Made by a program: the position numbers and the translations under genes
Source of the DNA: Branchiostoma floridae
Lineage: Eukaryota > Chordata > Leptocardii > Amphioxiformes > Branchiostomatidae
Length of the DNA stretch: 64,000 nucleotides
Assembly (NCBI RefSeq): GCF_000003815.2
Contig: NC_049989.1
Coordinates: 5,160,182 to 5,224,181, forward strand
Direction: 5' to 3'
Notes under the pieces: model-generated
Database searches by the model: none
What the model was told of the DNA's origin: nothing
The model's input: only the letters and a program-made list of their open reading frames with translations
Shown here: positions 37,181 to 60,002 of the stretch, piece after piece
Layout of the letters: each line of letters begins with the position of its first letter
Position numbering within the stretch: the first letter of the stretch is position 1

Positions 37181-40100
37181 ATGGCGCCCAGGATCGTCAA
37201 GGAGTTGTTGTCCTTTTGGAAGTCTATCGTCTTCCTCCTCACACCAGTACTTTTGTGCCCGCTCCCGATTTACTTCGCCTCCACGCAATACAGCAAGGTA
37301 AGGTGCTTTTTTGGTGTGTTTTCTTCAGCGTTCTTCTTTAGTATCTAGGTCATGACCGGTCACTGACCTCCCACTGCGTAGGATCAAGACAAACAAACAA
37401 ACAAAAAACAAATCTTACCCATGGAAAGCAGATTTTTACCCGGAGAAAGATTTTGTAAGTATGTCGTCTAAGTCTGGTCCAATGAGCAGAAGTGAAATGT
37501 AAGAATATAATGGTCATATTTATCGACATCTGTAACAAATTACAGCTGTTGCTTGTGTCCTCATTTTCACATCCTGTCAACGCTGGTTTTTGGGTCGTAC
37601 CACTCTATCTCGGGGGTGTCCTGGAATGCTCCATTATGGTTTTCAAAGGGTTTAATAATAACCCACCCCAAGGTTTGATGGTGTCATAACGCCAGGTCCT
37701 TTGCTATAACCCTTTATTGAATCAAACCAACGAGTGAGCGAAGCATCAACACAATTAACTCTTATCTTGTTATCTTATACTTATACTAAGTTATAGCCTG
37801 TCAGAACTTTATTTATAACGTTAACGTTATATAACTTAACATTTAATTACAAGAAATACTTTGTGACACTACACATTTAAATACAGTTGTCCAATTTTTG
37901 ATGGGCTTTGTATTCTCCCCTACTGCGATTTCTGTAGAATTTATTCAGCCTCTAGTTTTACATAAACAATTTCCCGTAGATTTGACCAAAGGGTTTATGC
38001 AAAAGGCTGGGCCTAGCATAGTAGCCAGGCTATCCTCATTTGTAATTGTAAACCCAAGATACTAAATACTCCCGGGTACACATGTCACAACTGTCCTAAA
38101 ATGTATCTTGGGTTGTGGTTGGGTTAATAGGTATACCGTATAAGTCAAAAGGTACTATATTAAACATTGTGGGCTGATCCAAATAAATTTTATGAAAGAG
38201 ATTTGGGAGATCCAAAATTTATGAATAAAATTTACCTGTTGTAACCTTCGGTACAACACCTGATGGCAGTTAAATCCAATAACATTAACTAATTGCAGTT
38301 ATATTCGTTAGGCCTTGGAAAAAATGTTTTAAAAAAATATGTCATTGCTTCATGCTTCCCTAAAAAATACAAGAAAAATAAAGATAACTCCTACCTACAT
38401 ACCCTAATTTGTTCTGGACTGAAACAGTCAATACATTGCAACATTTTTTTCCATAGGCCTTAGACTACTTTGAATAGTGACTGTGTAAAACATCTTACAA
38501 TGTCCATACAATTTTGTTAAGACCCCCTCATGCTCAACAATAGTCTTATGTTTATACAATATTCTAAAGTATTATGTTGCCTACCTTAGATTGCAGCCTG
38601 TGCCTATGCTGTGATCATCATGGCAGTGTACTGGACAACAGAAGTTCTTCCTTTGGCTGTCACTGCTCTTCTTCCCATCATTCTGTTTCCCATGCTTGGG
38701 GTCCAGTCATCGAAGGATGTCTGTATCAACTACTTAAAGGTACGTATGTACTGTACATGTATGGAATGCATAAGACTTCTACTCTGGACTGTATAGACTT
38801 AACGGAAAACTTCTGGCAAATTTAAATTACGGGGCTGATCCAGTCAGTACGGTCAGTACTAATCACTTTAATCAGTAAGATTCCAATTCTGGTAGTTTGC
38901 TAAGGGGTACCAATGAGTGTAAGATGCCTTAGGTTCTATCAACTACAAAACTAAATTAATTTACTTCTGTTAAATGCAGGACAACAATTTTCTGTTTGTT
39001 GGAGGATTGCTGGTTGCTGTGGCCATAGAAAAGTGGAATCTCCACAAGAGGATCGCACTGAGGGTTTTGCTGACTGTTGGTTCTGAACCAAGATGGTGGG
39101 TTCTAGCTTCTACTGAATATGTTATCTATCTGAGCCTCTTAATTTATAGAGTATTCTCTCTCAGTTACATGTTGATTGGTTTTAAGTTCCTAATTAAAAT
39201 TGCATAATTGTGATGAGTGGAAGATCTTCAAAAGGTATAAAATCAGGCAACTTTGATTCTGACGGCAGCAATTTAGATGTTAAGTGTGTTCCAGTTGCTT
39301 ATCAGTAAAAAATCCTTTTAGCTTAGTAATTTAGTTATAATTTTTTTCCATAGGTTGATGTTAGGAATGATGTCAGCCACAGCATTCTTGTCCATGTGGA
39401 TCAGCAACACAGCAACAACTGCCATGATGGTCCCCATCGCACAGGCCATCCTGACGGAGTTACTGAGGGAGACAGGAAAGGACAAACCTGAAGAGAGAAG
39501 GATGCTGCCTCCTGACGGGAAAACAGGTTTGGTAGATACAATTGTTGTTAGGAAAGTAATATTTACCTCCCTGAAAATGGAGAGTGTTTGCTTGTTTGTG
39601 TATTGTTGGTGTATGTTTATTCACCGTTATTTGAGGGTATTGCAGTGACAAAAAATAGATATCCTGTTTGGACCTAATCTAATGACTTGAAGTAATAATG
39701 TAAAAGTTAAGTAGCCCAAATAAAGACATCGTTAATTCTTCATTGCTATGACTCAAACAAAACATTGCCTAAACTAGTGCAAACTAATAGTATTACAAGA
39801 AAGCCATTTAAACTGACTGTTGGCATATAATGATAACAGGATTCTGGTTTTAGGACCTATATTACTAGTATGTTGAAACTGACTTGATTATAATATGATG
39901 GTTTGTTGATGCCTTCGGTTTCTATATGTGATACATGGAGTTCTTTTCTAAACAGGAGGAGGGGAGGATGGAGAGGCACTCAAACTCAAGGAGATAAGAA
40001 TGGAGGAAGGGTGAGGATAGTTTATGATAATATCCACGGGAGACAATTCACTAGAAACCTATTAACAATTTTGTAGAATAGCTTTGTGCTATTTTGGAAA

Positions 40101-43100
40101 AGGCAATATTATTTCTTATGGATTCTTTTGTTTTTGTTGTTTATTGTGAACTGGTGTTGTGCCCAGTATTTGATAATGTTGAAATATTCTTGGACTTAAC
40201 AAAATGTTGTCCTGTACTGCTGCATAAAAATTCACCCAAATCTACCGAAATAAATTTGAGAGCAATTTAACAAGCCATAGTGCGCCCCATAACTGTTTGG
40301 CCTATCTAATGATATTTCATTTTTGGTCCAATCACAGTGTTTTATTCCTGTTTTGTTTGAACTTTTGTTTGTTTTCTGTTGTTTTTTTGTTGTGAAGTGA
40401 CCATGACTTTGTTGAAGATGACACGACAATGGCAGAAGACCAGGTAATGCACTAAAAATTCAACCAACCACAGTGTCTACATAAACCTTATCTTCAAAAT
40501 GACCACTTCACTTAATACATAAGTGTAATATGAAAAATACATGTGTATTTAACATTCCATGGTAATGTTAAAATGTACTAGATCCTCTGAATTTTACAAC
40601 TAAAATAGATTTTTACTTATGCTGTATTTGATATGTTTCTATTGCCTGTATCTTTGTGAGAAGTCTCAGCTTCCTGGCTGACCCATGTAATACTAATATT
40701 GTAATAATATTCTGTAATATTTTAGAGTCATGCAAATATTGAATGTGATATTCTAACAGTAAAATCATCTTAAGTTACGGATTTGAAACTTCTCTTCCTG
40801 ATTTCCAAGGAATTATTGCTTCATCATTTACAAGTAAGTCTGTTGAGTTTCTGTAACTGTGGGTAAGGTCTCTAACTCAGTATTCTGGACTTGCTAGTTG
40901 TGAACTAAAAAAAATGCCAAAAAGTGTGATAGCCAAAAAGAAAAAAAAAACAGCACATCATTTATGAGGGCCCCCAAGGGGGGGTACCGACAACGCTCTA
41001 CGCTAAATTCGGGAGGGCCGGCTACGTAATACGCTAAATTATGGACGCTTTATTACGCTCTACGCTAAATTACGAAGTTTCATAATGCATTATGCAAATC
41101 TTTATAGTCTTTTGGCTGAACTCCGCTGACGGCAGAACACGTGAAGAGGAGATTTAAACAAAATTGATAATTTCGTCAACAAGATTCAAACTTTACTTAG
41201 ACGATATAATAAAAAGCACCAGTCTAGAGGCGGCGACAGCAAATTTCTTATGTGACGTAATTTTCAGCACTTCTAGCACCGAAAGCAGAGGCGCGACAAT
41301 CTTAGGGGCGTCCGGGGGCATACTCCCCCGGGAACATTGTGAAATCTTAACCCTATGAAACGCCATTTTATCCATTTTGAAGGGCAAAGTTTGCTCACAG
41401 AGTAAGCTAAGTTAAATGGCATTTCAATTAGAAATTCACATGCAACGCCCCCAAACATCATTTTCAGATTTCGAGTGCCATTAAAGCACGAACTGTCGGA
41501 ATGTAGGTATGGAAAAATTTTGAAATTTGTACCCTCTGAAACACCATTTCCTGCATTTTAAGGGACGAATTTTGCTGGCAGACTCAATGTAATGACATTT
41601 CTGTCAGAGAATACTAGTAGTTTTTGAGGGCGACGAGCGCCGGATGGGTCGTGAGCGCCAGAGGCCCAAGTCGCCGGAAGCCCAATGGCCGCCGGGACAA
41701 AAGTTGAAATCTTGACCCTCTGAAATTCCATTTCCTGGGGGCACATTCTGCTTGTTAACTAAGCTAAGTTCGGTAAATAAATTTCTACTAGTTGGGGGGC
41801 GACGCTCCCGCAACATATTTTCACCATGTCCAATGCCGAAGGGGTGAGCCATCGCAAGGAAGGTCCGGCGAAATTTTGAAATCTGGACCCTTTGAAACGC
41901 AATTTCCTGCGGGTAAAATTTGCCGGTAGACTAGTTCAGTTTAATGAAATTTTGATTAGGCTTTACGAACAATTCATATGAATTACGTTTTACGGTAAAA
42001 TCCAGTTAGCTTCTACGTAATACGTGAAATTAAAGGGGCCAATATCGCTCGACGCAAAATGCACCGATTACACTCTACGTTGAATTCGAGCGGTCCCGCT
42101 ACGGAGTACGTTGAATTAAAACCGCCGATTATGCTCTACGGAAAAGGGCTTTGGGGCCCCCATTTATTACTTTGGTTTGGTTTGAATATCCAGAAAGATC
42201 TAGAAATTCAGTCCTATTTGGGGATGAAATATACTACTTAAGTGTAGGATGGATTGTTCAGTCTGGTGAAAATGATGATCATGCAAAAAATAATGTAAGC
42301 AGACGACAGATGACAGTGAAAAATTATGCACAGGAAAAAGATGATCAAGATTTCCATGAAAAATGTAGCCTGGTATCCAGCTGTAATATAGCTCCCGAGT
42401 CTCTTCTCTGAGGTATATCCAGCTGTAATATAGCTCCCGAGTCTCTTCTCTGAGGAGAGAAGAGACTCGGGAGCTATATTACAGCTGGATACCAGGTTAT
42501 GAAAAATGTATTCAACTTTCTTAGTCCATATCAACTGACATAATCTCCAAGCATATCTTACGGTAGCATAAGATAGTATCAAAAGCTGGCAGAGGAGTGA
42601 AGCCGGCCTAGGATTGTATATGTGACCAGAGCCCCGGTGCCTGTACTCCATGGGCAGCTTTGATACTATCTTATGGCACCGTAGGATCTGCTTGGAGATT
42701 ACATCTGACATGCAATATGTTGTTCTTTAAAGAAACAGTTGCAGAGCAGCTCAGCAGATAGTGGTGACAGGATGAGCAAGGGTCTGCTGTTGTGTATTTG
42801 TTACGCTGCCAACATCGGAGGTACCGCCACCCTGACTGGTACAGGCCCCAACCTGGTCATCACACAGGCTGTGGACACGTGCGTTATCATGTTATGTTTC
42901 TTCCTATTTAAGGCATAGAATTCAGCCTCCCTTCTTTTGTACCTGGTGCAGCGCATGGTTTAAGGGCCCTGTCACAATTTGTTGTATCATATATTAGTTC
43001 TACAAATGAAGGACCTTTTTAGCAAAGTTGTGGATGTGTATGCAAAACTCTGTTGTCTTATGACAGTCTGAAGTACTCACAGAGTGTAATACTACATATT

Positions 43101-46100
43101 TTTCAAAGAACATCAGTCACCAGTTGGCTCTGTCATTTATACTCATAACATTGCTAAAAGTCCTACGACAAAAATTATACAATAAATGAGACTATCCATG
43201 TGTATATTAATGAAAATGCTATCTAGCCTACAGTTAGATGCATATATCAAATGATTTTAAAAGCAATATCAACCACATGCATTTTTGACTGAAAGGTTTG
43301 ACTGAAAGGAGTCGTGATGCTATAATTATATTTCAGACCATGACTAGATATAATATCTCGAATCAACTGTTCTGTCACCAACACGATATCATCTGTAAAT
43401 TTTTCCTTGTAAGCATGTTAGCTATCTGATATCTGAAGTACAATTTGTCATACGGTAATTGTGTAATATTAGGTAACAGCTAATAGTACCATCTTTTCAA
43501 ATTGGCTCTCCTCTTTCCAGACTGTTCCCCAACGGTCCAGGCATTGACTTTGTGACCTGGTTCTCCTTCGGCTTCCCTGCTATGATTCTGGCCCTTCTCC
43601 TGGCCTGGATCTGGCTTCAGTGTATGTTTCTGGACTGCAGGTATCAATATCATCATCTCACATAATTCATACGTATGCCATGGTAATTGCCACATGATAA
43701 TAAACACTTCAAGTTAAAGTGATTTAAAGGGATGTACCAGCACCAGTAATCCTGAGGTATATATTTCAGATAGTGTTTAAGACAATATATAACAATGTTT
43801 TTTTATGTGGTAGTATATTGGCACCTGGTGGCATTATGAGAGTTCTTAACTCTGCCAAAAGGGACGGGGTTGTGTCTTTGATTTGCATTATAGTATACTA
43901 CTGAAGAAATTTTGAATTTTTTTATTTCTTTGTAATGCAGGACATTTGCTAGTTCTGAACAAAGAAAAATAAGTTAGGTTTTGGGTCCCCCAGCAATTTC
44001 AGTTTGAACTGCAGCTACTAGTATTAAGAAATTTCTCTCTGATCAATATTGTAATAAATTTGAATGTGCATGGTTAACTACAGTTGTCTGCTGGGATGCA
44101 TTAAGCAGAGAGGGTGCAAGGGCAGATGTAAACGAGACCGGGACAATGCTGCCTATAAGGTCATCAGGAGACAATACGATGAGCTGGGACCTGTGTCGTT
44201 AGTATTGAAAACTTAAAGGCTTTACATACATGTAGTCAAGCACTTGCCACATGCTTCATTGCCTTTCTTGTGTTGCTGAAGATAATTTGTTGTGTATCAT
44301 ATCACACTAATGATTGGAAAAAGATAAAGTAGCAAGACTCATCTATGAGCAGTTATGATTGGATAGTTGGTCAATTTTGATCTTGGTTTTGTCATCAAGA
44401 AAGTGACAGTCAGAACAATTTTTAAGATAGGTGCATACGGTACAGTACTATGAAAAGAGTGTCATACTTTGTACCATAATGCTAACAAGTTCCTTACATG
44501 ATGATTTCTGTAGGTTTCCAGAGAAAGTTGTTCTCCTCCACTTTGTCTTGCTGGTGCTCCTGTGGTTTTTCCGGGACATGAAGTTTGTGAAACTGGAGAA
44601 TGGGCGGGCTGCTGGATGGACCTACTTCTTTGTGAAAGGGTGAATACGTGTAACTTTCTTTTGTCTTGTTGCAATGGTAGGAAATGTTTTCTTGTACACC
44701 AAATGTCTGAAATGCACAACCAGGCAACTACTACAGCTACTACAATGTGAGTGTAGTTAAGATTACAATTGAAAAAAATATCAATGCAACTGTTGATTGT
44801 AGATAACATACAATAGACTGACCAACATGTAGTAAGTAAATATATCCAATCATGCAATTTGACATAGAATATTTTAAGCAACTGACCTCAGATTTGGAAA
44901 TGTTTGTCTAAACGACTGAACTCATAACTAGTTTTGGAAATGCTAATGATATTTTCCTGCTGAAAGATGTTGTTCTGTTTCTGTAGCTACATGACAGATG
45001 CAGCCACAGGTATCATGGTCGCCATCTTCCTGTTCTTCTGGCCGTCCAAACCTCCCAACTTCATGTGCTGCAGACAGAAAAGAGGTACGTGAATGAGCTG
45101 AAATGTGCTAAAAACTTACTGCTAAAACTGAAGGGACTTGTGTCTTGAGTGCTCTTTATGTCTATTGTGTATGTCTGTGTATTGATGGAAAAGTCGTAAA
45201 AGAGCACTTTAACTAAAGATTGATAAGAAAACTTGTCCTTCGTTCCTTGGCATCATGTCAACAGTTGGCCTTTTTTGTGTTCTTTTTGCCCCACATTTGT
45301 ACCCAAAATATTCACGACGAAGGAAGTGTCTAATGTATAGGGAATATACATGGGTAGGGTCTGCATAGGGTACTAAGTATCATTATTGTTATATAAAACA
45401 TGTCACGTAATATGCCACTAGAGTAGTTCTGCAAAAAGTGATCTGGTTATATATTCATCAAAACTTTTTACTCTACATTTTCAAAATCTCACCGTGGAAG
45501 GGCCAAGACCCCCCTTCCACACCACCCGCCATTACTATTACCCTAAAATAAAATCGTGGCTAGAACCCTGTAGCATTACAAAACTGTAGATATACAAGTA
45601 CAATGTTAACAACCTTGTGTTCCTCCAGACACCCGTCCAGCGGAGCCTGCCCCGCCCATCCTAGATTGGGCCACGGTACATCAGAAGATGCCCTGGAGTG
45701 TCGTCATCCTCCTGGGAGGAGGGTTTGCACTCGCAGATGGAGTCAAGGTGGGAGACAGGAAAGATGTTACTGAAGAGGTTTCATCAGATAAAACCTCCTT
45801 CATGTTATGTAGCAATGTTCTTCTAGTGTAAGAATAGTCAAGTTGTATACAATCATTGTATAATTACGTTCAAGACAAAGAAAATACAGCTGCATTGCAT
45901 ATATTGAATCAAATACAAATACTGTCTCGTTGATGACTAAGCACATTGCTCATGAAGTTGTCAGTGATAAAAGGTAGTGAATGATAGCTGAAATGTCTGA
46001 CTGTTTGTAAAATCTATCCAGTTGCTTGAGAAACTTTTGTGAGCTGTGTGTATCTTGTTACCTTAATGTCTAACCTTTATCAATGTACCACCTGACATGC

Positions 46101-48081
46101 AATTTCCTACCATGTTTGCTACTACAGATAGAGGTTTAGATTCAAGGTTTATTTAAAATATTTGATTATTAGAGGATGTTGATATTTTCAGTTTTCATTG
46201 TTTCTTGTAGTTGTTTTACATATCCTTACCAACAGTGCTGAATCAGTGCCAGAATGAACACCTAAACACTGTGTATTCTGTATGTACATATTACAAATAT
46301 AACAATACGACACAGGCTTCTGGCCTCTCGGACTGGATGGGACAAGGCTTCCAAACATTTGCAGGGTTTCCCGTGGTCGCCCTAGCTCTCATCATTTGCG
46401 TCATTGTGGCCTTCATAACAGAGTTCACCAGCAACACGTCTACTGCTGCCATCTTTCTGCCTATCCTCGGAAAACTGGTGAGAGGGGACAAAAGCACACT
46501 GCAGTAACGGTTAATTTTTCTCTGTGTTGTCTGGTCTTCTAACTAACACTTTAACATGTTCTTGCTATCCTGCTATAGGTGGTAGTAGCTTGAATGCTCC
46601 TTGACTGACCAACTTATGTATAAACTGCTCTAGCAAAGGAGTGTACAGCTGTGTTACACTCTGCATTTTGGGTACCACCTGGGCTTGCACTGACATCTAC
46701 AGCCTTCTACTGACCGTACGCCGCCGCCCCCCCCCCCCCCCCCACACACACACATACACTTGCCAGGTTTCCAGCAGGTTTGACTTGCAGTACCTCTGTA
46801 GTGAACAACTTACTGTACCTCTGTAGTGAACAGTAGAACTTTGATGCATCCCTTTGCCTGACTCCAGGTATCAGGCCTGTCTATGTGGCTGAGTGAGGCA
46901 TTTACTAGTCTTGCTGGAGTGCCTCCCGCTGTCGTTGCACTGGTTGTATCCATCATTGTGGCCTTCATAACTGAGTTCACCAGTAATGTTTCCACAGCCT
47001 CCATCTTTCTCCCCATCATTGGTAAAATGGTGGGTGTTTGTCCTTCATTTTTTTAAATTGAAACTACAAAGTTTTACTGTTTTTCTCTCAATTGCCCAAA
47101 GGGTATTTTCAAACATCTGTTATTCAAAGACTTGTTGCTATATCCATACAGTCTAATAGTATAGCCACAACCTTACTCTGCCTCCCACTCAATGCTGCAT
47201 ATACCAATGTTTACTTCAGTAAACCTGATGTGTAAACCACTAACTAACATCACTTAAGACTAACACTTTGTGAACAATACTCTGAAACTAAAGTTAAGCA
47301 AATCTTTAACTTTTAATATCCTAAGTTTACATTTACTCATTGCTCTTTAAAGCTCTCTCTGAAAATTTGTCTTTTGAACGAACTGTAATTGTGACATGTG
47401 TGATTAATAGAAACATTTTATTCCTCTCTTTAGGCTGAGGGTATCTGTGTCCACCCTTATTACCTAATGATCCCGGCAACCATCGCCTGTTCTTTTGCCT
47501 TCATGCTACCAGTGGCGACACCGCCCAATGCCATTGTTTTCTCGTATGGGCGCATCAAAGTGTTTGACATGGTAAGTGGAATAACAAACTTTAAACATAA
47601 TAAGAATTACCACTGTAATTTTCTCTTTTTTTTAAACAATTACTACTGCTGCAGTATCTTTGTCCATGGGGTAACCTATATCCATTGTTTTGAAAACTAA
47701 AGTATTTAGGTATATCAAGTCAATGAACATCGGATTTCAAACTGCAATATTTTGAAAATACTACTCTGAGACCAGCGTCCGTCGACATGATGTCCCAAGA
47801 TACTCTGTTTTTGAAAACAACAGATGTAGCTTAACATGCGGATAAAGGTGATTGAGATAGAGACAACCGTAATTTTTTTTTTCTTTCCATTCCAGGCCAA
47901 GTGTGGCTTCATGTTGAACCTGGGCTGTATCCTGGTGCTCACTTTCGCCATCAACACCTACGGGATCCCCTTGTATGGCCTCAGCACGTTCCCATCCTGG
48001 GCCACCTGTGCTGCTGGTGGGGTCACCCTGCTGGGCCCTGCCAATGTCACGGGGCTTCCTGCTAATGTTACTCTGGGGTAA
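37181..48081 (+). CDS. SLC13-like: SLC13 (DASS) Na+/carboxylate cotransporter, paralogue A (complete)
   Basis: Coding exons: 37181-37297, 38590-38739, 38980-39095, 39354-39526, 39956-40010, 40398-40443, 42745-42878, 43521-43640, 44084-44197, 44514-44639, 44987-45084, 45629-45747, 13a 46316-46477 (or 13b 46868-47029), 47434-47571, 47896-48081. With one version of exon 13 they give 617 aa, the family's usual size. Landmarks: [20 protein letters not shown] (first membrane helix), [33 protein letters not shown], first Na+-binding signature SNTATTAMM (SNT at 145-147), an acidic cytosolic loop (exons 4-6), [33 protein letters not shown], second signature SNT or SNV (495-497), [16 protein letters not shown], and C-terminal N-glycosylation sites N606 and N613. 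It should carry citrate or other dicarboxylates with Na+ across the plasma membrane; exact substrate unknown. All introns have GT-AG ends. Confidence 0.92.
40957..42165. mobile_element. Unclassified 1.2-kb element in SLC13-A intron 6
   Basis: The ends are roughly inverted copies: ATTTATGAGGGCCCCCAAG on the left and GCTTTGGGGCCCCCATTTAT on the right. Both end regions carry repeats of the type CTCTACGCTAAATTACG or TACGTAATACG. The middle holds four tandem segments about 170-185 bp apart, each starting near 'GAAATCTTGACCCTCTGAAA' and continuing with CGCCATTTCCTGC (at about 41340, 41521, 41706, 41878). There are no coding frames. I could not assign it to a superfamily. Confidence 0.55.
42370..42495. 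repeat. Perfect 35-bp-arm hairpin with an extra direct copy
   Basis: The left arm 42417-42451 (starts ATCCAGCTGTAATATAGCTC) and right arm 42456-42490 are exact reverse complements with a 4-nt loop (GAGG). A third copy of the left arm lies just upstream (42370-42412), preceded by CTGGT; the right arm is followed by the complement ACCAG. So the sequence is A-A-A' with an outer complement. It lies in intron 6 of SLC13-A. Exact pairing suggests a very recent origin. Confidence 0.9.
42543..42699. mobile_element. Palindromic MITE, copy 2 of a TA-flanked family
   Basis: The terminal repeats start ATCTCCAAGCATATCTTACG and end CGTAGGATCTGCTTGGAGAT, with TA directly outside each end (42541-42542 and 42700-42701). 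The inner arms (CATAAGATAGTATCAAAAGC and GCTTTGATACTATCTTATG) also pair. It is the same family as 314-439, with a longer centre. It lies in intron 6 of SLC13-A, about 45 nt before exon 7. Confidence 0.8.
46316..46477 (+). CDS. SLC13-like: SLC13-A exon 13a (SNT version)
   Basis: The exon is 162 nt, phase 0 at both ends, with acceptor ACACAG| and donor |GTGAGA. It encodes 54 residues starting [12 protein letters not shown] and containing [20 protein letters not shown]. This is the re-entrant hairpin and helix carrying the second SNT signature, which in bacterial VcINDY and in human NaCT helps to form the second Na+ site and the substrate site. It is about 59 per cent identical (32 of 54) to exon 13b. 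Confidence 0.85.
46726..46757. repeat. Poly-C and CA tract between exons 13a and 13b
   Basis: About 18 C residues are followed by a short CACACACA run, within the 390-nt intron between the duplicated exons 13a and 13b of SLC13-A. The pyrimidine-rich tract could serve as a binding site for poly-C or polypyrimidine-tract binding splicing factors, but that is conjecture. Confidence 0.9.
46868..47029 (+). CDS. SLC13-like: SLC13-A exon 13b (SNV version)
   Basis: The exon is 162 nt, phase 0 at both ends, with acceptor ACTCCAG| and donor |GTGGGT. It encodes 54 residues starting [12 protein letters not shown] and containing [20 protein letters not shown]. It starts 390 nt after exon 13a ends and could replace it without changing frame. 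SNV at this site is what human SLC13A2 and SLC13A5 have, as I recall, while SNT occurs in SLC13A1 and SLC13A3. Including both exons would insert a second copy of this hairpin and is structurally unlikely. Confidence 0.85.
47656..47851. mobile_element. Palindromic MITE in SLC13-A intron 14, same family as 23019
   Basis: It starts near TTTGTCCATGGGGTAACC followed by TATATCCATTG and ends at GCGGATAAAGGTGA. The inner segments TATATCAAGTCAATGAAC and CCGTCGACATGATGTCCC are mirrored. It fills most of the short intron between exons 14 and 15. A copy of the same family occupies the homologous intron of SLC13-B. Confidence 0.6.
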
Positions 48082-48563
48082 AGCTGTTCCAGATGGCCAC
48101 TCGACAACTAGTATCTTCAAAATGAAAAACATCGTCCTTCACCGGCTTCTCTGTGGGCATTGCTTGCAGCATGCTTACAAGCTTCCTGGCATATATTCCT
48201 TTCCCAGCGTATTTGTGAATTGACTTCCCCCATCACCGCCCCAAAAAGCACAATCCCGCCCCACAACAACTTACACTAAATGCCAAGGCCTACAGAGAAG
48301 CCGGTGAAGGAGGCTAAAATTTGTCCGTGCAACACAAACTTGGAGGGTTCACACATTGCTTTGTGTTAGTAGATCACTTCCAGATATATTTCTGTTTTGC
48401 ATTTTAAGCACTCTCAAAAGACAATTGGTGTGGTGTTGTAGCATTTTACAGCTGGTTTCCTAAGTGCATTGCTTGTAGAAAATGTTTTATCAGGAAGTTC
48501 TGCATTGTGTTACACTTTTTGCTAACGATACACTGTTACATGCTTCCTCAAGCTCAGACTTTC

Positions 48564-52025: not shown

Positions 52026-55000
52026 ATGGCGAATGGGACATCAGGAATATGCAATGGACTTGTGAGATTCTGGAAATCCATCGCACTTCTTGTGACACCT
52101 GCGATCTTCAGTCCACTGCCTATCTACTTTGCGACAACAGAACACAGCAAGGTATATATATGTTGATATTTTCCTTTTATATCTATCATCATACGGTATC
52201 AGCCAGTATGCGTTTATGTCAGCTATTACTTGTTCATATATACAATTTAAAGTTTAAGATGCGTTTCTTGTGTGACCATTGTCTCACCCTAATGACGTGG
52301 CAGAAAACCATTTTGCAGGCCGATCTGAGTTACTAGTATTCATTAACAAATAAAGGCAACGTTACAACTTATCTAAGAACATCAAATGTACAAGTACATG
52401 TAGGGTATACATGTTTTGAGCACACGGTGGCTGTACGTTCTAAAGAAACCAAACGGAACAGTTGGCCGTGTCATTGATATCAGGTAAATAAATTGCCCCA
52501 CTTTGCGTCTTACAAAGTTGACAACAAGGAAAACACAATACAATGATGACCCATATTGTGATGGCCTGGAAAACATTACTTCGCAAACCATGGCTGTTTC
52601 TCGCCCAAACATGTGTATGTAGCTGGTATTTGCCTTTCGATGTAGCTAGCCTAGATTTTGTCAACGACTCATCCATTATCAGTGCTTTCAGTGTTGGCTC
52701 AGTGCGAATTTGCAGTCCTTTTGGCGTTTAAATCTTTACCTGTTCATACTTTCATGCATCATACAATTTCAATATGACTTAAAGCAAACATGTCATTGAA
52801 GCACACAGCAAATCTGCAATGTACACCTGCTCAAAACACCCCCCTGTTTTTACAAAACTATATGTACACGATTCCGTTTTCCCAGGTCGCGGCATGTGGG
52901 TATGTTGTGATCATCATGGCGGTGTACTGGGCCACAGAAGTCCTACCTTTAGCCGTGACAGGTCTCCTTCCCATCGTGTTGTTCCCCATGCTGGGGATCC
53001 TCTCAGCAAAGACCGTCTCCATCAACTACGCACAGGTACCGATTAAATCCTGTTTGAACATTTTGAAATGTATAACCCAACTACACTTTAGTAATGACGT
53101 CAGTGGGTATATTAGATTTATATAGTAGTACTGTCTGAAATGGATCTCCACATTTGCAAGATTTCTTGCAGGATAGATTTGTTGATACGAATTTGTCACA
53201 AATAAGTTTTATCTATCCTTAAGAGGCTTCCATGTAGTTCCATTACTATATAATACTATTGGAGCTAGCGTTTCTTAAGTGACGCAGTTGTCAAGATGTA
53301 CGTTGAGATGCCGAAATTTAGATGAATGTTAAATGAACGGTCAACTTCGGTACTAGCGCTATAGGGAGCCGTCACCTAACGCCATAAAATGCATGGGAAT
53401 ATAGTATTTCGTGGCACTTTCTTATTGAAACCTTAAAAAAAACACGCGAAAACATTGTCCGTATCATCCTGTGGATACCAAAGACATAGACTATTTACAT
53501 GTGATTAATATTGTTCGTGAGAGAATACGTGATAACACCTTTGCCCTCTGTCCAGAACGCCACCTTTCTACTGGTTGGAAGTCTGATATTTGCGATAGCC
53601 ATAGAACGGTGGAACCTCCACAAGAGAATAGCTCTGAGGGTGCTGCTGGCTGTTGGAGTGGAGCCAAAACGGTACGTTTCTGTCCGCCTGTCTCCATACG
53701 TGTGACCTATAGGAGTTTCTTTTTTAGTGCATACATGTACTATCATATGGTTATCTTCAAGTAGATGAAATTTGTTTGTTGCATCGTATAACTGTTAATT
53801 GGCACCTGTTATGTACATATTACACTCCTTTATGTTTGGAACCGCATTGCAAACATCGCATGAAAATCGCTATATATATATATATATAAATGTAAATGCA
53901 TCCGCATCTGTAAGCAGCGACACCTATAGCTGCAGTACTAGTATACGATGTGAAGCAGTCCTGAGGAAGGTGACAGATGGTCACCGAAACATTGGAAATA
54001 AAGCAAGGGTTGTAAAAAAATGGATCTTCATTTTATGACTTACCTTGTCTATATTTTCTGCTCTCTTCAATCGGAACGTTGTTGATATTTTCCAGTCTAC
54101 TGTTGGGAATGATGTCAGCCACGGCGTTTTTGTCCATGTGGATCAGCAACACAGCAACCACTGCCATGATGATCCCCACGGCTGAGACCATCATTTCTGG
54201 GTTGTCTTACGATGTCGAAGCCGACCGCCAGGAGAAGCATGTCCAGGCCAAGAAGATCTCACTTTCAAATGAGAAAACAGGTCTGACTATTCTTCCTTGC
54301 AACAAAATATACTATATAGTCAATACTTACATTACATCACATGTATAGTTATTTCAGCATGATCATAAGCAAGATAAGCTATTCCAGCTTGTTAAGCTTG
54401 ACTTATAAAAATATTCCCGTCATGTACATGTACCATATGGAACTATATATAACGTAACATTAATTATGCACATCAGTCCTTTATTAGCATAAGTGATGTC
54501 CCTTATTTCACCTACCATTAGTAACAAGAAAAGCACTTGAATTAACTTTGCAAATCATTCAATGTTCTATTTTGCATTTTGCATAATATACATTCAATTG
54601 TGTAATCTGCCTAAGCTACTTGAATACCAAATATCCTGACAATCCGTCTTTCTTTGTCTCACAAAATGCCCCTATACATTTCTATAGGTCTTCTGTCGGC
54701 CAGAACGTACGGAAAAGGGCCTTACAGGACACCAGAGGACTTAGTGAGAATAGTTGAACAGTAAGTTGCCCCCCTCCCATGTTCTTGCTAGCTTTAATTA
54801 GTAGGATATATTGTAAGTTTAGAGGAGAAGACTAGGCCCTTATCTAGTCTAATAGTAATTGTACAAATAAGTACTAGTCTTTCTAACTTGTGCTTTGCCT
54901 ATCTAGCTATTGAATAGGTGGTGTTAACGTTAAAGATTACAATAGAAATATATAAGAACCTGAATGGACACTCAATGTACAGTATGTTCAATCCAAGCAT

Positions 55001-58000
55001 TGAAATCATGTCACAAACTTAGGTTTTGGACCCAGTATATTGTCCACCTCTTGATTTATGTCAAATTGTTTTGTGTTTCTTTGTTTTTGTAGTGATGACG
55101 CCGAGGACACGTATGAAGATGAGGTACCATCAAATATTTTTCTCGCAAAGCTTTTGAAGTGTTCATTCTAATGTCTAGTCACCACATTCAAAATCATTTT
55201 TCATTTCATTTTTCATTGTTATCCCCAAATATTTTTCTAAACATATCCCCCTCCTCTTTCCCTTTCTTACAAAGGAGGGACCATCCGATCGTTCGGCAGA
55301 ACAGGCCGACAAGATCGCGAAAGGCCTGTTACTGGGTACCTGCTATGCTGCCAACATTGGAGGCATGGCTACTCTGACTGGGTCCTCCACCAATCTGCTG
55401 GCTGTGGAAGTTATTGAAGCGTGAGTTAAACTTTCTGAATAAAACTTTCTTATTGCACTTTAACAGACAGACAGACAGACAGACAGTGTCTGCATTTTGT
55501 TTTGAAAATAATACTATGCCCATATTTTACGAAACTGGTGGCTTAAATTTGTGCTAAATTCGAAATAAGAATGTTATTGTGATTTTGCTGCCAGGTGGCT
55601 TTCGCGTCATCGAAAATAGCCTCTTATGATAACGTTCCGAATAGCCTCTTATGATAACGTAGTTATCCACAAAATCCAAGGATGTTTAACTTTAACTATA
55701 TACATCATAATTTATGATTAAATCACGACTATTGTCAACCTTATACGAATGGAATTACTGATATTGTGACATTTTACTTTCCAGGATTTTCCCCAAGAGT
55801 AACGGTATCGACTTTGCCACCTGGTTCTCATTCGGCTTCCCAACGATGGTTCTGATTCTCATTTTGGCCTACTTCTATCTACAGTGGCTGTTTCTTGGAT
55901 GCAGGTAAAATGAAAACAAGGAAAGAAATTCATTGCTTCATTGTGAATCTCATGTAGATAAATAGTTCGTCGTTATCTGCCTCTTTATTTGAAGCTTTGT
56001 CTACAAATAACTTTACAATTTTAGCCCACATGCAGTTACACTTTATTACCTCCCTAGTTGCTTGCTGGGTTGCATGAAGCGCGAAAGATGCAGAGGTCTT
56101 TGTCAGAGAAACCAGAGCAGTGCAGCTTACCAAGTGGTGCAGAAACAGTACAAGGAGCTGGGACCACTGTCGTAAGTTTTAGTGATATTGCTGCATGCGT
56201 ACACAGTAGAGGCCGCTTAATTGCACGGCCTATTTGTCAGTGATTGTCGTGCAATTATCAGGCCGGTGTAATAATACGAAGTTATCCAGCTGGACCGCGC
56301 CGCACTCTACGTCAACCCCCCCTCCCCGCTCTGGGCGTATAAAATGGGTTGTCCTTCCTTACAACGTTGATTTTTCTTTATTTTAATTTCGAATTCTGTT
56401 CTTAGTTGTCAACGCTTGCTTCCCTTTTTTGCCAGTTTCCCCGAGAAAGTTGTACTTTTCCACTTCGTCCTGTTGGTTCTCCTGTGGTTTTTCCGCGACA
56501 TGAGGTTTGTACATCTAGAGAACGATCGTGCTGCAGGATGGACCTACTTCTTCAGGCGGGGGTGAGTGAAGCTCGTAGTTTCCTCTGAAACATTTGTGAC
56601 ACTAGTTTGGCAGGGTAACCTATATCCGTTGCTTTTATATACGTGATATTTACGGGTATCAAGTCGAAGACGCTGCAATATAAAACATTGCAGTTTGAAA
56701 CTACCGTTAGGCCATGTTGATTTGATTATATGGATGACATCCTCCGGGAACTCCAAAAGTGATGCGAGCGAGCGAATAAAAAAAAAGTTTGGCCAAAAAA
56801 AAATGTTGCCTTCAGTATGAAATCAAAGTGGCCAGGAAGGTTGAACATAGGACTAAACACACATAGTATGGTACACCAACAGTTAGGTGTAGGGACCAGT
56901 ACATCATACGAGTGCAAAACATTTTTTCTTCTTGGACCAATCCGAAAAAAAACAGACCTGAAAAAAACAAAACAGAGGAACAGGTTTCGCCAATTACAAA
57001 ATGGACACACTATGTCGGCAGCCATTTGGGGTCTAACAAGAGCGAAGTCAAGTAGAGTTTATAGTCAATTAAACCAAGTTTCTATAGTCAAAGGTACAGA
57101 GACAGTTAACCTTTATTCCACGGAGATGGGATTTTAAAATGCAGTGGGAGTCCAATAATCCACCAAACAGATTTCTTTGTAGCAACATTGACCAATTACC
57201 ATTGTTTTGAGTATTGCCTGTTCTCAAGTTTCCACAGACAATCAGGTTCAGGTCCAGACCTGGAAATGATCCTCTGGACCTGAATTTTCTGTACTGGTAC
57301 CTCCCCCAACCAACAATAGATTTTTTTTCTTTCTCTGTCCTTTCACATCTCATTCTTTGACTTAAGATTCATTTTGGCATTCTATGGCATTAGTTATCTG
57401 TTTTTTTTTCAATCTACGGAATATTTGTGCTCATTTTACAGCTGCTTTGCACAATTTATTGTGTGCTCGAAAACTTTTTTTTTTTTTGGAAAGGGCCGAA
57501 AATTGGTGCGCGCGCGGATGTCATCCATATAATCAAATCAATGTGGCCTTACCGGCGAATAAAGGCGAACAACTGTCATTACATGTTTTTTGCCATGTGT
57601 TGTTGATAGCCATCACATGTAAATTGTTCATCATATCTTTAACCTAAGAGAGCGAACGAAACGTTTGAGCTTTTCCAAATTATATCCAGTAGCTTGAGTA
57701 ACGCGTATCTTATCACCTAGCTACCTAACCTTCATATCCACGTAGCTATTATATGCATTGTTTTATCTACAAGCAACATATATAGCAAATGAAAACTTTT
57801 CCTAACATTGTGTCATTTTTCATTCACAGCTATGTAACAGATACATCAACCGTCATGCTGGTTATCATCCCACTTTTCTTCTGGCCATCCAGACCTCCAA
57901 GCTTCCTCTGCTGCAGAAATAACGAAGGTTCGTGTGTCTTTAATATTACTAGAAATATTTACAGAAATGTCGAACCTTTCTGGAGTAAAAAAACAAACAT

Positions 58001-60002
58001 TATTTTAATTCTTCCCGTAGGGCCATTCGGCATTCCAAATAACAGGTTGAAAGAGAAATTCTTTAGTAAGATGTATAATCTTTCTTATCCCCTTTGCAAA
58101 CACTACAGGTCAAAATTTAATGCAAAAAAATGACTGAAGAAGGTGTATTTTCGCAGATGCACAATCCTCCGAGCCAGCTCCTCCCATCTTAGACTGGTCT
58201 ACAGTGAGCAAGAAGATGCAGTGGGGACTTGTTTTTCTCATAGGAGGAGGTTATGCACTTGCAGATGGGATCAAGGTAAGAATTTCAAAAGGGTATGATG
58301 ATATTATGTTCCCCCTGTAGTAAGAATTGAAAATTTAATTTCTTCGCTAAAAAGACGTATTTTGGTCCAATGTTCTCTCCTTTTAGAACAATTTACTCTA
58401 CAACAAATAAACCTGTAGCCTTGCTAAAGAAAAGACGGTGCTTTCATTCCTTCTACCTCTTCTATGCACATACAATGAGTGTTTCAGGTAGCCTATAGCA
58501 GGCTCTACAGGGCGCTGAAAAAATAGCTTAGGTCGCAAACTATACTCCTCGGCCATCTAACTCCTCTGTCGTGTTTTTAGTCTTATTTGGCCAATTCAGA
58601 ATCTACTATTTCTCAGCGACCTGTGAAGCCTGGTAGTGGCTACGTTTCAGGCAAAAATTTTGTAATCAATGACTTGAACCCACGCAGGTTTCAGGACTGT
58701 CCAGTATGATGGGGCGGCTGTTCAAGTCTGCCTCCGGGTTCCCTCCCGTCGCGCTGGTGCTCACCGTCACCACCATTGTCTCCTTCACGACGGAGTTAGT
58801 CAGTAACGCTCCTGTCGCCGCCATCGTGCTGCCAATCCTCGCCTTCTTGGTAAGATAATTATATTTTCACTCACCGCTATTCTTGATTGTGACGTCTTAC
58901 ATGCAGTTCTAATGCAGCCAGCTATCGGATTATGATGGCGAAAAATATAAATAGCACTGTGTTTTTTTTATATTGTTTTAGTGTTTTTGTTTCTTTGTTG
59001 GCGTTGCTCAGAACTTGCTCTATCTATGGATCGTATACCGTGAGAATCTTATTACCTTTGCCAAGAAGGTTATATTTTCGGTAGCATCTGGATATGTGTG
59101 TGTGTGTGTGTGTGTATGTAGAAGACCAGCATATCTTGAGAACGCTAAGATGGATTGCATTGATATTTGGTATGTGGGTAGGTCTTCATGAGAGCTGGTT
59201 AGAGAAATGTTAATTAATAGTAGAGTATGGCTCATGTCTTGTGTCTTTTTGCACAGGCTGAGGGCATCTGCATGCACCCCTATTACCTGTTGGTCCCGGC
59301 CACCATCAGCTGCTCCTTTGCCTTCATGCTGCCGGTGGCGAACCCTCCCAATGCAATCGTCGTTTCATGCGAGAGAATCCAAGTGTATGATATGGTATGT
59401 AAGAAAGGCAATGGGATTGCTTTAATATGGAGACGCTTAAATAACTGAACGCTGAATTCCGTGAACATTAACGCACGAGATGTTATAAGGAATTTCTGCA
59501 CTGATGATGAACTTGACATATAAGGTCTAGTTGAAAGGCTAGTTCACCTTTGTCCACAGGGTAGCCTATATCCGTTGCTTTTAAAAACGGAGCATATAGG
59601 AATATTTTGAATATTAACAAATATTAAAAAATATTGCAATTTTAAACCACCGTCCATCGATTTGATATCCCTAAATACCCTGTTTCTAAGAGCAATGAAT
59701 ATAGGTTACCCCGCGGATAAAGGTGAACTAGCGTTCACTTAACTCTTGTCCAGGCCAAATAAAGACGGCTTTGAGATCTAAACCTTTCTTTCTTCCTGTT
59801 ACTGTTTCAGATAAAGAGTGGCTTCTTGTTAAACCTGATCGGCATCCTGGTGATAAACGTGGCCATCAACACGTACGGATTCCCCCTGTATGATCTAGAC
59901 ACTCTCCCCTCCTGGGGGAAGGGCTACTGTCAGCACAACCTCACAACGACCATGACCTCATCCTCGGCTCTTCTCAATACCACCCTCACTCCAGGTGTAT
60001 GA
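52026..60002 (+). CDS. SLC13-like: SLC13 (DASS) Na+/carboxylate cotransporter, paralogue B (complete)
   Basis: Coding exons: 52026-52151, 52886-53035, 53556-53671, 54096-54280, 54688-54760, 55093-55123, 55275-55420, 55785-55904, 56058-56171, 56436-56561, 57830-57927, 58157-58275, 58688-58849, 59257-59394, 59811-60002. They join in phase to 631 aa. Exon phases match SLC13-A throughout; nine internal exons have the same length, and differences fall in exon 1, the acidic loop (exons 4-6), exon 7 and the tail. Landmarks: [53 protein letters not shown], first signature SNTATTAMM (SNT 148-150), [50 protein letters not shown], and C-terminal N-glycosylation motifs NLT and NTT. At the second signature it has SNAP (507-510) instead of SNT or SNV, so Na+ or substrate handling may differ. 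There is no second exon 13. The frame is intact. Confidence 0.92.
53866..54040 (+). mobile_element. Retroelement-like fragment with a hammerhead-like core
   Basis: A TA microsatellite (about 53872-53887) is followed by a repeat ending in CCTGAGGAAGGTGACAGATG, GTCACCGAAACATTGG and AAATAAAGCAAGGGTTGT. The order CTGANGA, a hairpin (GGTGAC/GTCACC), then GAAAC resembles the conserved core of hammerhead ribozymes found in Penelope-like and other retroelements, but one extra A breaks the core spacing. It lies in intron 3 of SLC13-B. No reverse-transcriptase frame is present. Confidence 0.35.
56601..57572. mobile_element. Interrupted or composite MITE in SLC13-B intron 10
   Basis: The left part (AGGGTAACCTATATCCGTTG ... 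TATCAAGTCGAAGACGC) matches the family of 23019-23212. The expected right end (CCGGCGAATAAAGGCGAAC) appears only at about 57552-57570. The flanking blocks TTGATTTGATTATATGGATG (56718) and CATCCATATAATCAAATCAA (57522) are inverted copies enclosing about 780 nt of AT-rich DNA. Best read as one longer fold-back element or a MITE with an insertion. Confidence 0.45.
58688..58849 (+). CDS. SLC13-like: SLC13-B exon 13, divergent second signature (SNAP)
   Basis: The exon is 162 nt, phase 0 at both ends, and corresponds to exons 13a/13b of SLC13-A. It encodes [18 protein letters not shown] at its start and [17 protein letters not shown] around the signature. Threonine or valine after SN is replaced by Ala-Pro, and the preceding FT by LV. 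The rest of the hairpin is well conserved and the exon has no stop, so this looks like functional divergence, not decay. Confidence 0.85.
59052..59215. mobile_element. Truncated relative of the microsatellite-bearing element
   Basis: ATTACCTTTGCCAAGAAGGT and TATATTTTCGGTA are followed by a TG microsatellite (59095-59117) and GCATATCTTGAGAACGCTAA, GATGGATTGC. The order 'hairpin - GGTTATATTTT - microsatellite - AACTCAAGAACG-like - GGATTGC' parallels the start of the element at 49951. It lies in intron 13 of SLC13-B. Confidence 0.45.
59538..59732. mobile_element. Palindromic MITE in SLC13-B intron 14, same family as 23019
   Basis: The left end GCTAGTTCACCTTTGTCC is mirrored by GGATAAAGGTGAACTAGC on the right. 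Inner blocks GGTAGCCTATATCCGTTGC and GCAATGAATATAGGTTACC also pair. This is the best-preserved member in the window and defines the terminal sequence. It lies 143 nt after exon 14 and 78 nt before exon 15. Confidence 0.75.

Follow-up and report, generated by a model that had tools for sequence, protein, structure and literature searches.

A tandemly duplicated hairpin exon in a putative SLC13 di/tricarboxylate transporter gene of Branchiostoma floridae, a candidate for mutually exclusive splicing

The window, a stretch of 64,000 nucleotides from Branchiostoma floridae (contig NC_049989.1), contains tandem genes of the SLC13 family. In SLC13-A, the gene studied here, the thirteenth exon is present in two adjacent versions, 13a and 13b. 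The features of the region are as follows.

37181..48081, + strand, SLC13-A gene, 16 predicted exons with AG/GT boundaries in one open frame
42844..42846, + strand, Gly codon in the constant exon 7 (TGTGPN), aligned with NaCT G228 and VcINDY P201
46211..46315, + strand, possible 105-nt in-frame 5' extension of exon 13a, 35 open codons, maybe open by chance
46296..46315, + strand, weak 3' splice site of exon 13a, 6/17 pyrimidines
46316..46477, + strand, exon 13a, HPout hairpin, SNT-STAA
46436..46438, + strand, Thr codon at exon position 41 of 13a, aligned with NaCT V466 and VcINDY T379 (VcINDY numbering as in PMC5413979)
46478..46867, + strand, intron between 13a and 13b, 390 nt, U2-type ends
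46868..47029, + strand, exon 13b, HPout hairpin, SNV-STAS
46988..46990, + strand, Val codon at exon position 41 of 13b
58688..58849, + strand, single HPout exon of SLC13-B (SNAPVAA), same length and phase

Exons 13a and 13b were each 162 nt long and in phase 0-0, with AG upstream and GT downstream, and each encoded 54 residues, of which 32 were identical and 22 different. The mismatches fell mostly within the first 28 residues (17 of 22), where identity was 11/28, compared with 21/26 afterwards. The coordinates, length, phase, and identity of the pair given in an initial annotation of this DNA were all reproduced, as were the tip motifs SNT-STAA and SNV-STAS. The protein length of 617 aa given there was not obtained; the exon model gave 621 aa with 13a or with 13b, a length on which the small exons 5 and 6, as uncertain predictions, bear. 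The same annotation described the isoforms as differing only at the ion/substrate site, which is too narrow a description for the 22 differences above.

The predicted SLC13-A protein matched PF00939 from residue 16 to 587 (profile positions 10–470 of 472), with E values of 2.9e-94 and 4.5e-92 for the two versions, and the top-scoring solved relative was human NaDC1 (8w6c). By family membership, SLC13-A is thus a putative Na+-coupled anion transporter. Its hairpin-tip motifs were SNT in exon 4 and, in the second hairpin, SNT (13a) or SNV (13b), the two exons occupying one and the same slot in the transporter. Exon 13 aligned with NaCT residues 426–479, including the SNT/V tip of HPout, and would thereby contribute one half of the binding pocket. 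In our reading of the fold, the exon would also contain both hairpin helices; the roles of the hairpins in the DASS fold have been described previously (PMC9098524, PMC8537002). A search with 13a recovered 13b both within the window (E 1.4e-19) and across the whole assembly (E 5.1e-15), and the likeness of the two exons is homology rather than chance.

Some other elements of the gene were recorded. Near-perfect inverted repeats lay in intron 6 (42366–42499; 36 nt at 100% and 44 nt at 98%), and a second inverted pair came after them (42541–42701; 43 nt, 91%). The repeats at 42366–42701 can form hairpins and are possibly a short mobile element. The intron between 13a and 13b contained a stretch of poly-C and then one of CA (46725–46755), as well as a 25-nt tandem repeat (46783–46832); these are expected to be variable among individuals. 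No Rfam family reached its gathering score on 45000–48100, and no Pfam family matched two ORFs elsewhere in the window at E 0.1. The GFP family PF01353 had no match in this genome, but none in 14 control genomes either, so its absence carries no information.

With an E limit of 1, the assembly (513,431,437 bases in 431 contigs) was searched with the protein of each exon. Both queries led to the same 8 places, which were 8 HPout exons in 7 SLC13 loci: A with two exons, B, C, then D, E, and F at 16.4–16.5 Mb of the same contig, and G on another contig (C1). All 8 exons were 162 nt long with AG/GT ends. Since a 162-nt exon in phase 0-0 is common to these loci, the pair in SLC13-A is a true exon duplication. 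Among the 7 SLC13 loci found, two HPout copies were present in SLC13-A only, in a search that scores the best candidates and that a strongly diverged extra copy could escape.

Downstream of SLC13-A lies the tandem paralogue SLC13-B (about 52026–60002). Its pocket letters were NaS1-like, with TGSSTN in L5 and VANPPN in L10, where Asn replaces Thr as in NaS1; the HPout tip SNAPVAA was unusual. Judged by these letters, SLC13-B may be a sulphate-type member placed in tandem with a carboxylate transporter. The third tandem gene, SLC13-C, starts at about 61258 and extends about 18 kb past the window end. A gap of about 11.7 kb separated its detected exons 3 and 4, and one HPout exon was found. Between A and C, the HPout exon was 33/54 identical and the neighbouring exon 12 was 80% identical over 40 residues; the HPout exon was thus the less conserved of the two, despite belonging to the binding site.

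The age of the duplication and the selection on both copies were examined. By the NG86 method, 13a and 13b differed by a dN of 0.29 and a dS of 2.23, and the maximum-likelihood distance was at its bound. The silent sites were therefore saturated, and the duplication is old. In the pairwise codon model, omega was 0.25 between 13a and the gene C exon (omega=1 rejected, 2dlnL 11.55) and 0.06 between 13b and the gene D exon (omega=1 rejected, 2dlnL 28.8), a test that cannot assign the selection to either of the two lineages compared. On the 8-exon tree, omega=1 was rejected for the terminal branch of 13b on both topologies tried (2dlnL 5.95 and 7.84), and it was not rejected for that of 13a (2dlnL 2.58 and 1.81; estimates 0.10 and 0.14). 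Purifying selection is thus firmly supported for 13b and less so for 13a, and the unrejected omega=1 leaves room for a recent relaxation of 13a.

With regard to genealogy, the nucleotide identity of 13a was 114/162 with the gene C exon and 103/162 with 13b. The DNA trees placed 13b with D–G, separate from 13a, B, and C, with weak support, and in the protein tree 13b was basal to that trio. Trees uniting 13a with 13b were not rejected (p-AU 0.155 to 0.202), and neither were trees uniting 13a with the gene C exon (p-AU 0.294 and 0.374); the exon duplication may thus be older or younger than the A/C gene split.

Furthermore, the two exons were unusually alike in one tract, 46401–46432 in 13a and 46953–46984 in 13b, with 30/32 bases identical in the tract and 73/130 outside it. 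Among codons comparable at silent sites, the same codon was used in 1/10 for codons 1–28, 8/10 for codons 29–39, and 4/11 for codons 40–54. Without correction for the 28 pairs, three scores gave the clustering of identity between 13a and 13b a permutation p of at most 0.0005; clustering also appeared in the pairs E–F (0.0005, one score) and 13a–C (0.0035, one score), and on silent codons alone the 13a–13b value was 0.14. These patterns are only suggestive of a small gene conversion in the tract.

The splice sites of the pair were compared with those of the other exons. According to the initial annotation, both exons had good splice sites. This was confirmed for the acceptor of 13b, which was ordinary (24th lowest of 67), and for both donors, which were adequate (13a 47th lowest and 13b 44th lowest of 66), and it failed for the acceptor of 13a, which was weak. 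The latter had the lowest score of 29 hand-placed acceptors; the gene B exon table behind part of that set was made by eye with several boundaries lacking AG/GT, and only sites passing AG/GT were counted. In the set of 67 acceptors, mostly placed by script and excluding SLC13-A exons 5 and 6, the 13a acceptor had the fewest pyrimidines (6/17) and the fourth lowest score, the three lower ones being F7, G7, and D8, script-placed sites that were retained in the counts and may be misplaced at weakly aligned exon starts. In addition, the AG closest upstream of the 13a acceptor was 65 nt away, the largest such distance in the 15 SLC13-A introns (next 62). The asymmetry of the acceptors fits a default use of 13b with a regulated 13a, and also a decay of 13a. 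In U2AF1, the duplicated exon that has the less favourable signals was reported to be used more than its partner (PMC5224494), so splice-site strength alone need not decide which exon is the default.

Possible sources of exclusivity were also investigated. Because 162 is a multiple of 3, inclusion of both exons or skipping of both leaves the frame intact, and exclusivity would need another source than the frame. Of the human clusters of such exons, 60% contain exons with lengths not divisible by three and the others do not (PMC5740500); accordingly, frame enforcement is not required for mutually exclusive exons. Steric exclusion was rejected, as it would require a shorter intron than this one of 390 nt if the branch point is normally placed; an AG located 33 nt ahead of 13b suggests, from AG positions, that the branch point is close to the 13b acceptor. 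Incompatibility of U2 and U12 sites was likewise rejected, the donors being U2-like.

The search for complementary intronic sequences, a check proposed in the initial annotation, found no RNA pairing above shuffles among introns 12, 13, and 14. The best local complementarity in these introns was matched or beaten by 30, 24, and 20 of 100 shuffles, and the whole-intron duplexes by 39, 48, and 70 of 100. A 14-nt inverted pair (45953–45966 and 46688–46701) was noted. Moreover, 7 splicing-factor motifs, ACTAAY and a PTB-like one among them, were counted in the three introns, and no enrichment survived the 7 tests. ACTAAY occurred 4 times (total P 0.083; intron 14 alone 0.037), and the PTB-like motif had a total P of 0.04 (intron 14 alone 0.023), not significant after 7 tests.

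The binding pocket was then compared with solved and characterized relatives. In NaDC1, the Na2 site is formed by T471 and T474 through their carbonyls, by N476 through its side chain, and by A518 (PMC10980263); the equivalent of A518 lies outside exon 13. For the other three, the corresponding residues of the exon (35, 38, and 40) were Thr, Thr, and Asn in 13a and 13b alike, so the swap should leave the Na+ ligands alone. The initial annotation had proposed an effect of the swap on Na+, which these identical ligands do not support; a difference in substrate, citrate versus dicarboxylate, would be a more specific reading of the exon swap than a tuning of Na+. Its statement that vertebrate SLC13 members vary at the tip residue was borne out in four human proteins: position 41 was V in NaDC1, V in NaCT, T in NaDC3, and P in NaS1.

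Nie et al. (2017) treated the equivalent of residue 41, together with a Pro/Gly residue of TM5, as a module separating succinate from citrate binding (PMC5413979). In that source, Pro plus Thr in VcINDY selects C4-dicarboxylate, and Gly plus Val in NaCT admits citrate. Furthermore, the NaDC1 mutation V477M, at the residue after N476 and thus at position 41, was reported to cause about 90% loss of transport in vitro (PMC12383742, citing Pajor and Sun 2010). Mutation of VcINDY T379 did only moderate harm, and MT5, an octuple VcINDY mutant including T379V, transported succinate normally with a similar Km (PMC5413979), which indicates that residue 41 alone may do little. The difference at residue 41 is also unsurprising by itself, given that 22/54 positions differ.

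The TM5 and HPout residues of SLC13-A were Gly and Val with 13b, and Gly and Thr with 13a. The constant Gly is of the citrate type, and 13b therefore completes a NaCT-like Gly plus Val pair. At the other loci the pairs were Pro plus Thr in C and D, Gly plus Val in E, Ser plus Val in F, Ser plus Ser in G, and Ser plus Ala in B; the pair of SLC13-C, with Pro in L5 and Thr in HPout, was of the VcINDY type. Co-variation of the two residues across loci is no more than an impression from few genes. The comparison suggests that SLC13-A has obtained, by exon duplication, both HPout tip types that its relatives keep in separate genes. On this basis, it might be proposed, quite tentatively, that the 13b isoform is citrate-competent and the 13a isoform dicarboxylate-leaning, so that splicing would switch the metabolite selectivity of the transporter.

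The duplicated exon is real, and 13b at least is clearly under selection. Mutually exclusive use of 13a and 13b is the most likely reading of the locus and, in our judgement, a probable one. It is backed by the anatomy, by the selection, and by a fold argument: a transport domain with both hairpins one after the other, or with neither, should not work. In this respect the view of the initial annotation, that the duplicated HPout exon is fit for mutually exclusive use, was upheld. It is unlikely, though it deserves weight, that 13b is constitutive and 13a a decaying or barely used copy, skipped after loss of its polypyrimidine tract. Such a decay would explain why the 13a acceptor is the lowest of 29 and has the fewest pyrimidines of 67, and why omega=1 went unrejected on the 13a terminal branch alone; however, the frame of 13a is open through all 54 codons, the HPout tip residues are retained, omega=1 was rejected between 13a and C (omega 0.25), and the 13a donor, 47th lowest of 66, is adequate.

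Joint inclusion of both exons, or their use as independent cassettes, would give some proteins two hairpins. The length divisible by 3 permits this, and both donors and the 13b acceptor are adequate for it, but two serial HPout hairpins should disrupt the inverted-repeat transport domain, as judged from the DASS fold (PMC9098524), and we regard the arrangement as improbable. A longer form of 13a (46211–46477, 267 nt), replacing the 162-nt form or existing beside it, would start at a stronger upstream acceptor and add 35 residues before the hairpin. The acceptor at 46211 scored 9.57, against a median of 10.3 for real ones, and the frame of 13a continues through the 105 nt without a stop; however, 6/438 non-splice AGs scored in SLC13-A introns beat this acceptor, none of the other HPout exons among the 8 had comparable acceptor use, the family pattern being 162 nt, and a DNA search of the assembly with 46180–46315 gave, at E 0.001, no match other than the query. 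This form is very improbable, a shade more so than joint inclusion.

Under mutually exclusive use, the following mechanism may be proposed. An exon encoding the HPout re-entrant hairpin of an SLC13 di/tricarboxylate transporter would have been duplicated in tandem long ago, and 13a and 13b would have been retained as alternatives, one per mRNA. With less certainty, the asymmetry of the splice sites suggests that 13b would be used by default, and that 13a would be regulated and require activation. Also with less certainty, published structures point to a swap that spares the Na2 site and alters the substrate side of the tip. The Val of 13b together with the constant Gly would form the NaCT-type citrate module, and the Thr of 13a would make the pocket more dicarboxylate-leaning. 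Kinetics or trafficking may be changed by the remaining 21 differences, most of which fall within the first 28 residues.

In human, 236 events of tandem duplicated exon substitution in 214 genes have been reported, for example SLC12A1 (PMC9741552), and the transporter cases of mutually exclusive exons include SLC25A3 and SLC39A14 (PMC5740500). Like SLC13-A, these three genes have adjacent homologous exons inside the folded domain of a transporter, which are used singly in their case and are candidates for such use in SLC13-A; unlike it, they belong to other gene families. No mutually exclusive exon case in SLC13, amphioxus included, was present among the literature matches listed, in a search outside which most subscription papers lie. 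In the available parts of the two papers naming both SLC13 and mutually exclusive exons there was no such SLC13 event, and one had an alternate-terminator event of SLC13A3.

NaDC1, NaCT, and NaDC3 share with SLC13-A the PF00939 domain, the two SNT/V hairpin tips, and the same Na2 residues in the exon. Each human chain has either T or V, whereas SLC13-A holds the T of NaDC3 as well as the V of NaDC1 and NaCT. MT5, a VcINDY humanized by eight changes that include P201G and T379V, has the Gly plus Val of SLC13-A with 13b; it was made in the laboratory with eight changes at once, whereas SLC13-A would switch the HPout half only (PMC5413979).

Exons 13a and 13b would therefore offer a natural isogenic pair for asking how much of the choice between citrate and dicarboxylates is due to the HPout tip (T/V) and its hairpin, a question raised by the structures and seemingly without a settled answer in an animal SLC13 protein. 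If transcripts confirm the exclusive use, splicing would govern the uptake of citrate, and with the tentative substrate switch one gene would achieve by exon swap what the rest of the SLC13 family does via gene duplication.
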